64,000 bases of DNA. It comes from Caldinitratiruptor microaerophilus (GTDB taxonomy: Bacteria; Bacillota; Sulfobacillia; Symbiobacteriales; ZC4RG38). This document shows, piece by piece, positions 4,482 through 23,659 of this stretch. The DNA is taken from NCBI RefSeq assembly GCF_025999835.1, contig NZ_AP025628.1, positions 3,472,001 through 3,536,000 of the forward strand, given 5' to 3'. A program made the position numbers and the translations under genes. Position 1 is the stretch's first letter, and every line of letters starts with the position of its first letter. The notes beneath the pieces are model-generated. The model was not told the DNA's origin, searched no databases, and saw only the letters and a program-made list of their open reading frames with translations.

Positions 4482-4556
4482 GGGCGTGTAGCTCAGCGGG
4501 AGAGCGCTTGACTCACATTCAAGAGGTCCCAGGTTCGATCCCTGGCACGCCCACCA
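4482..4556 (+). tRNA. tRNA-Val (anticodon CAC)
   Basis: Acceptor arms GGGCGTG (4482-4488) and CACGCCC (4546-4552) pair, and an encoded ACCA end follows. The anticodon stem CTTGA/TCAAG encloses loop CTCACAT, giving anticodon CAC. The T arm has GGTTCGATCC. The 3' part from the anticodon loop onward is the integration site of the 15-kb element, and the integration leaves this copy complete. Confidence 0.95.
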
Positions 4557-4558
4557 GT
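4511..4558 (+). repeat. attL: 48-bp core of the integrated element
   Basis: Bases 4511-4558, from the tRNA-Val anticodon loop to two bases past the ACCA end, recur exactly at 19389-19436. After a 3-base mismatch a further 11 bases (GAAGCGGGTTT) also match. This is the classic signature of tyrosine-integrase insertion into a tRNA 3' half, and the integrase gene lies next to it. Confidence 0.93.
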
Positions 4559-4683: not shown

Positions 4684-4696
4684 GGTTCGGTCAATT

Positions 4697-5923
4697 TCAA
4701 GCCCGGTTCTTCTTTTGAGCCGCCGTGAAGAGTGCGCCAAGCCTCTCCACGGCGTCTTTCTTTTGCCGGCGGAACACGTGCCGGTAGATGTCGGCCGTCA
4801 CCTGGACCTGGGAATGCCCGGCAAGTTCGCTGACCGTCTTCAGATCGACCCCGGCGTCGATCATGTTCGTGACGAAGGTGTGCCGCAGGTCGTGGAACCG
4901 GATCTTCGGCAGTCCAGCTTTCGCCAGGATCTCCGGGAGGTGGCGGTTCCGGACGTTCGACGGGTTGAGAGGCGTGCCAATCTCTGTCGTGAACACCAAT
5001 TCGGGTTCGCGCAGCCCGATCTTGAGGAGTTCCCGGGCCTGCTCGATTCGCCACTGCTTCAGGGCGGCGACGGCAGGCTCCGCCAGGTCGATGGTCCGCC
5101 GGGAGGTCCGGGTCTTTGGGGTGGAGAACACGGGCTTTCCGCCGATCCACTGGAGATTCTGAGCCACGGTGACGGTACCCGCTTCGAGGTCGATATCCCG
5201 CCAGCGAAGGCCAAAGAGTTCACCCTGGCGGAGGCCGGTATATACCGCAAGAGTGAACAGGGCGTGCAGTCGGTCGTCCCGGGCCGCTTCGAGGAATTGC
5301 GCCACTTGCTCCGGTGTGAGGGCGGCAGCTTCCTTCCGCTCCACCCGGGGCTTCTTCACCGCGTCGATGGGGTTGCGGGCCAGGAGCCCCCATTCTACGG
5401 CCTGTCGCAACGCCTTATGGAGGACGGCGTGAACGAGGGCCACCGTGCGGGGGCTCTTGCCAGCGCCCAGGAGGGTATGATAGAGGCCCTGCACCTGTGG
5501 CGGCGTGATTTTTTGGAGCGGAACGGCGCCGATGTGCGGGGCGATGTAAGCCCGCACAATATCCTGGTAGTTCTGGAGCGTGGTGGCCTTCACCTCGTGG
5601 GCGACCGTGGTTTCGAGCCATCGGGCCAGGAACTGCCCCAGTGTCTCCCGGGACGGCTCAACTAGGGTGCCTTCCCGGATCTTCTGCAAGGTTTCCAACT
5701 TCCAGTCCACGACCTTCGTCTTCAGCGGATCGGAGAACCGCGCCACCTTCCGCCGTGTCTTTGGCACCCCGTTCTCGTCCAGGACGGGCTTTCCGTCGGG
5801 GCCTATGACTTGTTCCCAGCCGATGGTCAGTTCGCAGTACCAGCGTTTCCGCTTCTCGTGATACCAGACGGAGCCTTCACCGTTGCCGGCCTTATCCTTC
5901 CTGGGGGCCGGTTTCCTGGGCAT
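4697..5923 (-). CDS. int: Tyrosine-family site-specific integrase
   Basis: 408 residues, usual size for phage integrases of Firmicutes. An N-terminal arm-binding-like domain (GSVWYHEKRKRWYCELTIG) is followed by a SAM-like core-binding domain at about 70-160 and a catalytic domain. Visible catalytic residues are Arg in TGLRQGELFGLRW, the H-x-x-R box HDLRHTF and the terminal LAGHS...YRHV tyrosine region. The gene lies next to the tRNA, pointing toward attL, as in most tRNA-integrated phages and islands. It should catalyse integration and, with the excisionase-like protein at 7002, excision. Confidence 0.95.
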   Translation of the reverse strand: MPRKPAPRKDKAGNGEGSVWYHEKRKRWYCELTIGWEQVIGPDGKPVLDENGVPKTRRKVARFSDPLKTKVVDWKLETLQKIREGTLVEPSRETLGQFLARWLETTVAHEVKATTLQNYQDIVRAYIAPHIGAVPLQKITPPQVQGLYHTLLGAGKSPRTVALVHAVLHKALRQAVEWGLLARNPIDAVKKPRVERKEAAALTPEQVAQFLEAARDDRLHALFTLAVYTGLRQGELFGLRWRDIDLEAGTVTVAQNLQWIGGKPVFSTPKTRTSRRTIDLAEPAVAALKQWRIEQARELLKIGLREPELVFTTEIGTPLNPSNVRNRHLPEILAKAGLPKIRFHDLRHTFVTNMIDAGVDLKTVSELAGHSQVQVTADIYRHVFRRQKKDAVERLGALFTAAQKKNRA

Positions 5924-19388: not shown

Positions 19389-19436
19389 ACTCACATTCAA
19401 GAGGTCCCAGGTTCGATCCCTGGCACGCCCACCAGT
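19389..19436 (+). repeat. attR: 48-bp copy of the tRNA-Val 3' half
   Basis: Exact copy of 4511-4558, covering tRNA-Val from the anticodon loop to ACCAGT, without the 5' half. It is therefore not a functional tRNA but the right junction of the element. Confidence 0.93.
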
Positions 19437-19497: not shown

Positions 19498-19510
19498 GGT
19501 TTCGTCGGTT

Positions 19511-19600
19511 TCAAGCCTGGTTGGTCTGCTCCAGAGACGCCGTGGAGAGCGCGCCCAGCCTCTCCACGGCGTCTCTCTTTGGCCGGCGGAAGCAACGGGC
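19511..19600 (-). pseudogene. Relic of a second, related integrase (C-terminal ~25 residues)
   Basis: Read on the minus strand from about 19595, the DNA encodes FRRPKRDAVERLGALSTA...NQA and a stop at 19511-19513. This matches the C-terminus of the intact integrase (FRRQKKDAVERLGALFTA...NRA). The rest of the gene is lost. It lies just outside attR, exactly where the integrase of an earlier occupant of the same tRNA would be. Confidence 0.8.
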
Positions 19601-19657: not shown

Positions 19658-19721
19658 CTACGCGACCGCCCACGCCTGCGACAGGACCTCGGCCTGTTCC
19701 AGCACGGTCTGGGTGACCTTC
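19658..19721 (-). pseudogene. hsdR: 3' tip of a broken hsdR (type I restriction subunit) gene
   Basis: Minus-strand reading gives KVTQTVLEQAEVLSQAWAVA and a TAG at 19658-19660, the usual last residues of HsdR (DUF3387 region). The preceding HsdR part (...[12 protein letters not shown]) lies 3.4 kb away on the same strand at 23133-23355. Joining them at the shared KVTQ codons restores a continuous HsdR end. Confidence 0.6.
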
Positions 19722-19844
19722 AGGGCATGAGTGCTCCTCATGATGAATTGCTGCCACGCCAACCACATGAGATACTGATCTAGGTCGCTCTGTTTCGTTT
19801 TGACGTCTCATCTGTCGGATGGAGAGGCCAGGGGGGACACGACG

Positions 19845-20177
19845 GTGGAACAGGGCTCACCGCTGGCGGCCCTACAAGTCCTGTGGGAAGAGGCGGTACG
19901 GCGGCTGGGGGTGCACACCGTCCTCTTGATGGCGGAACGCATCCAGTGGGACCTGCAGGCCGTGTACCGAGAGGCGGACGACATCCGCTTTGGCCCCGAC
20001 GGGTGGGAGCTGTCGGCGCTACTGGCCCGGGAGCGGGGTGCTGAGGTGGCCGCCCGCATCGAGGAGTCCTTCCTCACGCTATACACAAACCTGATGGGCG
20101 AGGCTGCAGCCCACCACCTGCGCCAGCGGGTCCAGGAACGGCTGGCGGGCGGCAGCCCGGGCACGAGGGGGGCCTAG
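19845..20177 (+). CDS. Hypothetical protein upstream of the KaiC-like ATPase
   Basis: 110 residues from GTG 19845, with AGGGGGG 8 bases upstream. Helical, with VRRLGVHTVLLMAERIQWDL and ARIEESFLTLYTNLMGEAAA; no membrane segment or metal motif. It ends 4 bases before the KaiC-like gene, so it is probably co-transcribed and may be a partner. No family recognised. Confidence 0.6.
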   Translation: MEQGSPLAALQVLWEEAVRRLGVHTVLLMAERIQWDLQAVYREADDIRFGPDGWELSALLARERGAEVAARIEESFLTLYTNLMGEAAAHHLRQRVQERLAGGSPGTRGA

Positions 20178-20181
20178 GACC

Positions 20182-21579
20182 ATGGACGCCATCGAGCGCA
20201 TCGCCACGTCAGTGCCGGGGCTGGACCAGGTGCTGCAGGGCGGCATCCCCCGGTACGCCCTCACCCTGGTGTCGGGCGCCCCCGGGTCCGGTAAGACCAT
20301 CCTGGTGCAGCAAGTTCTCTTCGGCGCCGCCCGGCCTGAGGCACCGGCCGTGTACGCCACCACCCTGTCGGAGCCGCCCCTCAAGCTGGCCCGCTACCAG
20401 CGCACCCTCACCTTCTTCCAGCAGGACATGGTGGGGCGCAGCATTCACCTGCTGGACCTGGGGACGCCGCTCCGCCGCGGCGGCCTGGAGGCGGCGTTCG
20501 ACGCGCTGGACCAGGCGGTGCGGCAGCGCCGGCCGGCCCTCCTGGCCATCGACTCGTTCAAGGCCATGGGCGACATGGCCGCCGACGACCGGTCCTGGCG
20601 CACCTTCATCTTCGACCTGGCGGCCCGCCTCCCCATCTGGGGCGTCACCGCCTTCCTGGTGGGCGAGTACGAGGAGGCCGACCTGGTCTCGCGTCCCGAG
20701 TTCGCCGTCGCCGACTGCATCCTGCACCTGTACGGCACCGAGGACCACCGGCTGCAGCGGCGCCACCTGCGGGTGATGAAGCTGCGGGGGTCCGGCTTCC
20801 TCCGGGGCGAGCACCTGCTGTCCATCGGGCCCGACGGCATCCGGGTGTACCCCCGGCGGGACCTCCGGGACTACGCGCCGGTGGCGGCCCCCGGCGGCCG
20901 GGTGACCAGCGGCGTGCCAGGACTGGACGACCTGATGGGCGGCGGCCTGTTCCAAGGCAGTGTCGCCCTGTATGCCGGCCCCTCGGGCAGCGGCAAGACG
21001 GTGCTGGCCCTGTCCTTTGCCGCCGCCCAGGCGGCCGCCGGGCGGCCGGGGCTTTACGTGAGCTTCGAAGAGCCGGCGGACCATCTGAGAGAGTACGTTG
21101 CCCGACTGTCCCTCGATTCTGGCGATGGCGGCTGCCTGCACCTCCGGCACCTGTCGCCGGTGGAGCTGGACCTGGACATGCAGGCGGTGCAACTGCTGGA
21201 GGAGGTCCGGGCCGGCGGGTACACCTGGGTGGTGCTGGACGGCGTGGGTTCCTTGCGCGACTTGCCCGTCCACGCCAGGGGCTACCAGCTCTTCCTCTGG
21301 GACCTGGTGACCGCCTTGCGCCGCCTGGGGGTGGCCACCATCCTCACCCTGGACACGGGCGACCCCTTCGGCCGGGCGCACCTGTCGGACCAGATGCTGT
21401 CGGTGCTGGCCGACACGGTGATGGTCCTGCGTTACCTGCCGTCGGACCAGGAGCTGGCCCGGGGTCTCATGGTCATGAAGATGCGCGGCTCCGCCCACGA
21501 CACCCGCCTGGTGCGGTTCACCATCGGCGCTGGCGGGGTGAGCCTGGGGGCCGCCGTCGGAAGCGAGGAACTGCGATGA
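20182..21579 (+). CDS. KaiC-like double-domain ATPase (RAD55/KaiC family)
   Basis: 465 residues with two RecA-like KaiC domains. Domain 1 (about 5-225) has Walker A SGAPGSGKT near 32 and LLAIDSFKAMG as Walker B. Domain 2 (about 245-460) has Walker A AGPSGSGKT near 268, the catalytic pair in SFEEPADHL and Walker B TWVVLDGVGSLRDL. Domain 1 has SE in place of the EE pair, so it may be catalytically weaker. No kaiA or kaiB is present. Such proteins usually work in signalling; here the partner is a PocR-GAF-GGDEF protein whose start overlaps this stop. Confidence 0.88.
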   Translation: MDAIERIATSVPGLDQVLQGGIPRYALTLVSGAPGSGKTILVQQVLFGAARPEAPAVYATTLSEPPLKLARYQRTLTFFQQDMVGRSIHLLDLGTPLRRGGLEAAFDALDQAVRQRRPALLAIDSFKAMGDMAADDRSWRTFIFDLAARLPIWGVTAFLVGEYEEADLVSRPEFAVADCILHLYGTEDHRLQRRHLRVMKLRGSGFLRGEHLLSIGPDGIRVYPRRDLRDYAPVAAPGGRVTSGVPGLDDLMGGGLFQGSVALYAGPSGSGKTVLALSFAAAQAAAGRPGLYVSFEEPADHLREYVARLSLDSGDGGCLHLRHLSPVELDLDMQAVQLLEEVRAGGYTWVVLDGVGSLRDLPVHARGYQLFLWDLVTALRRLGVATILTLDTGDPFGRAHLSDQMLSVLADTVMVLRYLPSDQELARGLMVMKMRGSAHDTRLVRFTIGAGGVSLGAAVGSEELR

Positions 21580-23084
21580 GCCACGTGCCCAACCTGACGG
21601 TGGACCTGCACCTGGGCGCCTGGGTGGACTTCCAGCAGGCCCTCTCCCGCGCACTGGGGGTGGACCTCGCCCTCCTGGACACGCTGGGCGGCGTCGTCGC
21701 CGGCTCCCGGCCCGACCCGCTCCCCTGCGCCGCCCTCAACCCGGGCGGGGCCGTGCGCCACCCGGCCTGCGTCGCATTCTACGAGGCGGCGGCCCGTGGC
21801 AGGGCACCGGCGGTCGAGGGCGTCGCACCCGAGGACCCCCTGCGCTGCCCCTTCGGTCTCCTGGTGGCCTTGAGGCCCCTGCAGTCGGGCGACCGCCCCG
21901 TGGCCTTTCTGGCAGTGGGGCCTGCCCTGGCTTCCGCCGATGACGAGGCGCCGGTGCAGGCCGCCACCGGCGCCGGCCCGGGGGCGGTGGCGCCGGTGGT
22001 GCCGCCCGCCGACCTGAGCCGCCGGGCCGACGTGGCTGCCGCCGCCGCCCAGGAGACGCTGAGGGCCCTGGTGGAGCGGCGCCTCCTGGGCCTGGGGCGG
22101 CTGGAGTGGAGCGCCCTGTACCACCTGAGCCGCCTCGTCACCAGCGTCCACGACTCCGAGGCGGTGGTGGCCCTGGTGTTGAACAGCCTGATGCTGCTCT
22201 ACCAACCCCGGGCCCTGTGGCTGGCCCTGCGGGCCGGCGACGGCCTGGTGGTGACCCACGTGCGCGGCACCGACGCGGCCGAGCTGGCGGGCCGCGCCGT
22301 GCCCCTGTCGGTGCCGCCGCTGCGGGACGTGTGGCAGGCCCGGACTCCTGTCGTGGACCGGTCCGGAGCCGCCGTGGTCGCCATGGCGGGGGCGCCGCCG
22401 CCCGACGACGGCGGGGTTGCAGTGCTGCTGCCCCTGGCCAGCCCCACGGACCAGCTGGGGGTCATCGGCCTCCACTTGCCGGCACCTCCCGGCGACGACA
22501 GCCTGCGCAACATGGAGATCTTCGCCAGCTTCGCCGCCGTGGCCATGGAGAACGCCCGCCTGGTGAGCCTGCTTCGGGACCAGGCCAACACCGACCCGCT
22601 GACCGGCCTGTTCAACCGGGCCGGTTTCCTGGGCGTTCTGGATTAGCTCCTGTTCCACAGCCGGCGGATGGGGGAGCCCATCTGCCTGCTGATGGTCGAC
22701 CTGGACAACTTCAAGCAGCTCAACGACACTTACGGTCACCCTTACGGGGACCACGTGCTAAGGACCGTCGGCCACGTACTGCGCCAGCAGCTTCGCCGGT
22801 CAGACCGGGCCGGCCGCCTGGGGGGCGACGAGTTTGCTCTGGTGCTGCCGGGTACCGACCTGGCCCAGGTCCACCGGGTTTACCAGCGGCTGGTGGATTC
22901 CCTGTCCAGGCAGCCGTGGCCGCACGAGGGGCCCGTATTGTCGGCCGGAGCTGCCGAGGCGGGCGCCACCGACACGGCCGCCAGCCTCATCGCCCGGGCC
23001 GATGCCGCCCTGCTGGCCGCCAAGCGGGCCGGCAAGGGGCGCCTGATGCTGGACAGCGCGGTGGAGGCGGGTGGCGGGGAGTAA
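21576..23084 (+). pseudogene. PocR-GAF-GGDEF diguanylate cyclase interrupted by an in-frame TAG
   Basis: The first part (356 residues, ATG 21576 overlapping the ATPase stop) has a PocR-like sensor (two Cys at LPCAALN and HPACVAFY), a GAF domain at about 180-335 and the start of GGDEF (TDPLTGLFNRAGFLGVLD). A TAG at 22644-22646 follows. The same frame then resumes as LLFHSRRMGEPICLLMVDLD, with RLGGDEFALVLPG, to 23084. One base change from CAG or GAG would explain it. The active site is otherwise intact, so the loss is recent or the codon is suppressed. Confidence 0.8.
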
Positions 23085-23132
23085 TCGGGGCGGACCTGGG
23101 CCGGCGATCGGGGGGTGCTCGCTGCCGCGCCA

Positions 23133-23355
23133 TCTGGGTGACCTTCTCCTGCCTGTCAGGCGGATAACCGTGCCTGCGGAGGATATGGTTCACGAGCAGC
23201 CGCCGGTGGGCGCGCACGTTTACGCGCACCGCCCAGTCAATGGTGACGTTCGCGCGCACGGCGGCCACGGGCTCGCGGGCGATGGCGCGCAGGGTTTCGT
23301 CGCCCAGGACCTTCACTGCGCTGTCGTTGAGAGCCGGCCATTGTTCACATGACCT
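23133..23355 (-). pseudogene. hsdR: Fragment of hsdR C-terminal region
   Basis: Minus-strand frame reads ...[37 protein letters not shown] and [17 protein letters not shown], a close match to the DUF3387 end of type I restriction subunit R. It begins abruptly near 23355 and after KVTQ runs into unrelated sequence at the 14-bp repeat. No hsdM or hsdS remains nearby, so this is debris of a lost restriction system. Confidence 0.65.
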
Positions 23356-23477
23356 GTAGTCCACGGCCGCCAGCTCCGTCCGGAGCGGCCGCCTCGAAAA
23401 GCCCCTTGATCTATGACGCCCACCACGTGATATAATCACGGGGGCAACCGAGGAAACGGACGGCAAATGCAAACTCC

Positions 23478-23626
23478 GCAAGGGGAGTAGCCAGCCTGGG
23501 CTATACCAGGTGGTGTGGCCGTCATTACGGGGTTACCCCGGCTGCACCTGCCACCGGCGTGCGGGGGCACGGCAAGACCTTGGTTCCGCTACGGAACGGA
23601 AGGCTGCCGTGCCCCCTGTTTTGTTG
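23478..23626 (+). promoter_or_regulatory. yybP-ykoY manganese riboswitch with terminator platform
   Basis: The aptamer shows AAGGGGAGTAGCC at its 5' side and GGCCGTCATTACGGGG in the middle, the conserved elements of the yybP-ykoY class. A strong terminator follows: GGGGGCACGGCA (23563-23574) pairs with TGCCGTGCCCCC (23605-23616), then TGTTTTGTTG. Mn2+ binding should favour antitermination and expression of the downstream exporter genes. A TATAAT at 23431-23436 lies upstream. The class almost always precedes TerC/Alx/MntP-type genes, as here. Confidence 0.85.
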
Positions 23627-23659
23627 CGAGCGGGCCGGTACCGTGCAAGGGAGGATGTC

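Follow-up and report, generated by a model that had tools for sequence, protein, structure and literature searches.

Genes and features of the locus

The analysed window is a stretch of 64,000 nucleotides from the genome of Caldinitratiruptor microaerophilus, a single contig of 3,599,694 bp. This window contains a remnant of the restriction gene hsdR, with the right end of a tRNA-Val prophage to its left and a pair of small multidrug-export/TerC genes to its right. A segment that carries signalling genes splits the remnant in two. The features of the locus are as follows.

19658-19721, minus strand: left-hand (3') hsdR piece, about 20 codons, KVTQTVLEQAEVLSQAWAVA followed by a stop (PF11867 and alignment)
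19708-19721, no strand: left 14-bp repeat TCTGGGTGACCTTC (exact match; 2 copies in genome)
19722-23132, no strand: inserted segment of 3411 bp; no terminal inverted repeats
19839-20177, plus strand: small ORF, about 112 aa, start codon unsettled, no family match
20182-21579, plus strand: double KaiC-domain ATPase, 465 aa, two GSGKT motifs (PF06745, E 5e-63, two stretches)
21576-22646, plus strand: N-terminal part of a sensor/diguanylate-cyclase gene with GAF and possibly PocR, cut off by an in-frame TAG (GAF_3, E 5e-6)
22647-23084, plus strand: GGDEF remainder after the TAG, likely part of a pseudogene (PF00990, E 4e-31, profile 31-160)
23133-23146, no strand: right 14-bp repeat TCTGGGTGACCTTC (exact match; 2 copies in genome)
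23147-23330, minus strand: right-hand (5') hsdR piece, some 62 codons from the C-terminal domain, with an approximate 5' limit (PF11867 253-314 and alignment)

The prophage is bracketed by two identical 48-bp copies of the tRNA-Val 3' end, located at 4511-4558 and 19389-19436 (attL and attR); at the right copy, the 5' half of the tRNA is missing. Behind both copies lie 83%-identical segments (4695-4774 and 19509-19591) with an inverted-repeat, terminator-like sequence, which gives the impression that two islands alike in their ends integrated here. On the other side of the locus, a structured-looking leader (about 23440-23640) precedes the small multidrug-export/TerC genes. By eye it resembles a manganese (yybP-ykoY) riboswitch, and a comparison with Rfam gave no match.

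Cargo of the segment

The original prediction described the cargo as a hypothetical gene, a double KaiC-like ATPase and a PocR-GAF-GGDEF protein. Its first two items hold: a small ORF is followed by an ATPase with two PF06745 domains, both with Walker A motifs. This ATPase reaches 140.8 bits with the clock KaiC model TIGR02655, against a curated equivalog cut-off of 546.25 bits. The third item stands only in part, as the PocR match of the sensor gene remains below threshold (14.5 bits versus the Pfam cut-off of 23.9) and the diguanylate-cyclase gene is split within GGDEF by an in-frame TAG at 22644-22646. Read from the next ATG, the part behind this TAG misses the first 30 positions of the GGDEF profile; barring a wrong base call at the TAG, the diguanylate-cyclase output is therefore probably dead. 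Judged by gene neighbours, the module presumably serves in sensing and couples the KaiC ATPase to a GGDEF or kinase output.

At the edges of the insert, non-coding sequence measures about 117 bp ahead of the first ORF and 48 bp behind the last one, too little to accommodate a recombinase. No sigma-70-type promoter was detected by consensus scan.

The 14-bp repeat and the interrupted gene

One copy of TCTGGGTGACCTTC is located at each edge of the segment. The bases flanking the two copies are unlike on either side, so that the repeat is exactly 14 bp long. An exact search of the whole genome returned these two edge copies and nothing else (controls, 0), in agreement with the claim that a 14-bp duplication borders a 3.4-kb segment. 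Both copies contain GGTGACC, a GGTNACC dyad, at 19711-19717 and 23136-23142.

On the minus strand, the interval 23143-23481 matches positions 253-314 of the 329 in the Pfam profile PF11867 (T1RH-like_C) with an E-value of 5e-19; homology of the right piece to HsdR ends near 23320-23330. When the segment and one copy of TCTGGGTGACCTTC are excised, the two HsdR pieces fuse in frame and without a gap against intact HsdR of relatives from the same class. The profile match is then continuous across the joined flanks, the tail from the left flank running on to position 328, and the fused product aligns gaplessly with the HsdR ends of two class relatives, at 69-70% identity. The predicted restoration of an in-frame HsdR end upon joining of the flanks was thus confirmed. 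This in-frame, gap-free fusion establishes that the 3.4-kb segment is a real insertion with a 14-bp duplication of target type. Two copies of hsdR would be expected to give a bigger overlap, or a gap between the pieces; the pieces overlap by the repeat alone, as expected of a gene parted by an insertion with target duplication.

The interrupted gene itself differs from the ordinary hsdR with a normal end that had been envisaged. It is a remnant of about the last 80 codons, whose 5' part is missing too, and a search for the HsdR C-terminus in the rest of the genome yielded no further trace, the only matches being these two pieces.

The frame of the hsdR tail is open for 49 codons into the insert, the last 29 of them lying inside it (19722-19809, in the AT-richer left end). 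These inner 29 codons have no significant family match. The whole 49-codon frame has no match in plasmids and only weak ones in relatives, the HsdR tail itself among them. This open frame fits the view that there was no insertion at all, that the left piece comes from another gene or a second hsdR copy and that the repeat arose by chance; mono-nucleotide shuffling of the flanks also produced a 14-bp match, in 1 of 200 trials. We consider such an origin extremely improbable, because the repeat is exactly the stretch that the pieces share, because one domain profile runs through both of them uninterrupted, and because the inner codons have no significant match. Derivation of the left piece from another gene or a second hsdR copy is largely refuted by the repeat-only overlap together with the continuous PF11867 match.

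Relatives and distribution of the module

No full-length relative of the double-KaiC protein was found in the two genomes of the same family. A search of 154 genomes of the class gave full-length matches in four others, with 29-41% identity. Since the two same-family genomes have no full-length relative and only these four others of the class do, the module appears to have been acquired horizontally. The best relatives are 36-41% identical and come from a few genomes of the class and from proteobacterial plasmids; 66 plasmid records, Proteobacteria foremost, contain a relative, as does a Gemmatimonadetes contig (36% identity). Searches of phages and of viral contigs gave no relative.

Neighbours of these relatives vary. 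In genome G031, a GAF-PAS histidine kinase and two receiver-like ORFs (recognized by eye) lie beside KaiC, with a DDE transposase nearby, and in G098 KaiC is located beside a sensor with PAS and HisKA domains, downstream of a Tn5-type transposase. G034 has a small ORF, split KaiC frames and a PAS-histidine kinase. A small ORF and KaiC are accompanied by a diguanylate cyclase in Caballeronia, and by an HWE kinase and a response regulator in Paracoccus; in Sphingobium, Skermanella and Cupriavidus, KaiC occurs with a response regulator. The module, which was expected to recur with other flanks, does so both in class genomes and on plasmids, and its differing neighbours mark it as a recurrent type of operon with varied outputs. 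The small ORFs preceding double-KaiC genes are alike in position and C-terminal pattern only; their homology across modules is suggested.

Ends of the segment

Within 80 bp of the segment ends there are no terminal inverted repeats, the best local match being reached in 336 of 1000 shuffles. Neither the segment nor either of its ends has a second copy in the genome, where only hits with 2-3 mismatches were obtained, the same as for controls; no resident insertion sequence thus shares the segment ends. Comparable repeats around other copies of the module were also looked for. At nine modules, all of them distant relatives, none of 14 bp was present and the longest measured 10 bp, with gene ends taken as edges, 400 bp searched per side and simple shuffles used for comparison.

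According to the original prediction, a cargo module inserted into hsdR may have been moved by an unknown or trans-acting mechanism. The insertion is real; the proposed mechanism draws no support from a segment that lacks inverted repeats, has unique ends and belongs to a module that is not bracketed by repeats elsewhere. The view of the segment as a mobile element of its own is not supported.

Origin of the insertion

We propose, tentatively and with a probability of about 0.4, that the 3' end of hsdR received, in a single event, a three-gene signalling operon of horizontal origin, which entered at a staggered break, possibly by end joining. A staggered cut in hsdR would have left overhangs of about 14 nt, a foreign linear fragment would have entered the cut site, and fill-in of the overhangs with ligation, possibly Ku-dependent, would have completed the process. 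Such a route needs no transposase and no terminal inverted repeats, yet would leave a direct repeat. Ku is encoded in the genome (E 1e-51), so end joining is available to the cell, although the presence of Ku is no sign of its action at hsdR. Two points weigh against this reading: end joining does not usually act on 14-nt staggered breaks, and a clean duplication would more typically be left by an integrase or a transposase.

Site-specific integration is a rather unlikely account. Here attL and attR would share the 14-bp repeat as their core, and the segment would be a small tyrosine-recombinase element that either has lost its integrase or was served by one acting in trans. Identical cores about 14 bp long are usual for tyrosine integrases, terminal inverted repeats, absent here, are dispensable for them, and a prophage with 48-bp att copies in tRNA-Val lies next door. 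However, the segment has no integrase gene and scant non-coding space, its 14-mer is absent from the rest of the genome and the core of the adjoining prophage is a different one; moreover, the site lies within an ordinary protein gene whose end is not restored. Microhomology would give the same outcome without any module-specific enzyme, if the 14-mer was already present on a circular or linear donor and recombination took place between it and its counterpart in hsdR. We regard this as improbable, as the donor must have carried a 14-mer otherwise absent from the genome.

Also improbable is mobilization in the manner of mobile insertion cassettes, in which a transposase encoded outside the segment would have moved it and made a 14-bp target duplication. 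Long or variable duplications are known from the IS4 group (10-13 bp) and from IS1549/IS1634 (8-514 bp), and IS231-group elements with passenger genes have been described (PMC2266710); these precedents speak for it, as do the DDE transposase genes near two of the double-KaiC relatives. Yet insertion sequences with long duplications have recognisable ends, whereas this segment lacks terminal inverted repeats, its ends match nothing else in the genome and similar repeats are missing at other copies of the module. It is very improbable that the segment represents a transposase-free signalling cassette whose genes travel together by a route not yet described, one that generates 14-bp duplications without requiring terminal inverted repeats. 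If the same ends occurred elsewhere with another duplication, they would point to an unknown route of mobilization; so far there is one event only. What the locus records is the gain of a KaiC-type signalling operon at the site of a dead restriction gene, in a genome whose nearest sequenced relatives lack this operon.

Comparison with known systems

The remnant resembles the Type I restriction enzyme HsdR (PF11867) in its gapless alignment with the HsdR ends of class relatives, and differs in that some 80 codons are left, with no other C-terminal match in the genome. Like mobile insertion cassettes with IS231/IS4-type ends, the segment places transposase-less cargo between direct repeats; unlike them, it is single-copy, lacks terminal inverted repeats and has no resident element with matching ends. 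The ATPase scores far below the cut-offs of clock KaiC. Its closest counterparts are the double-domain KaiC-like ATPases outside cyanobacteria (surveyed in PMC5520375), although it shares only 36-41% identity with the best of them and its output gene is broken. With these ATPases it has in common two KaiC domains, a patchy distribution and signalling genes as neighbours; the relatives examined adjoin a kinase, a response regulator or a diguanylate cyclase.
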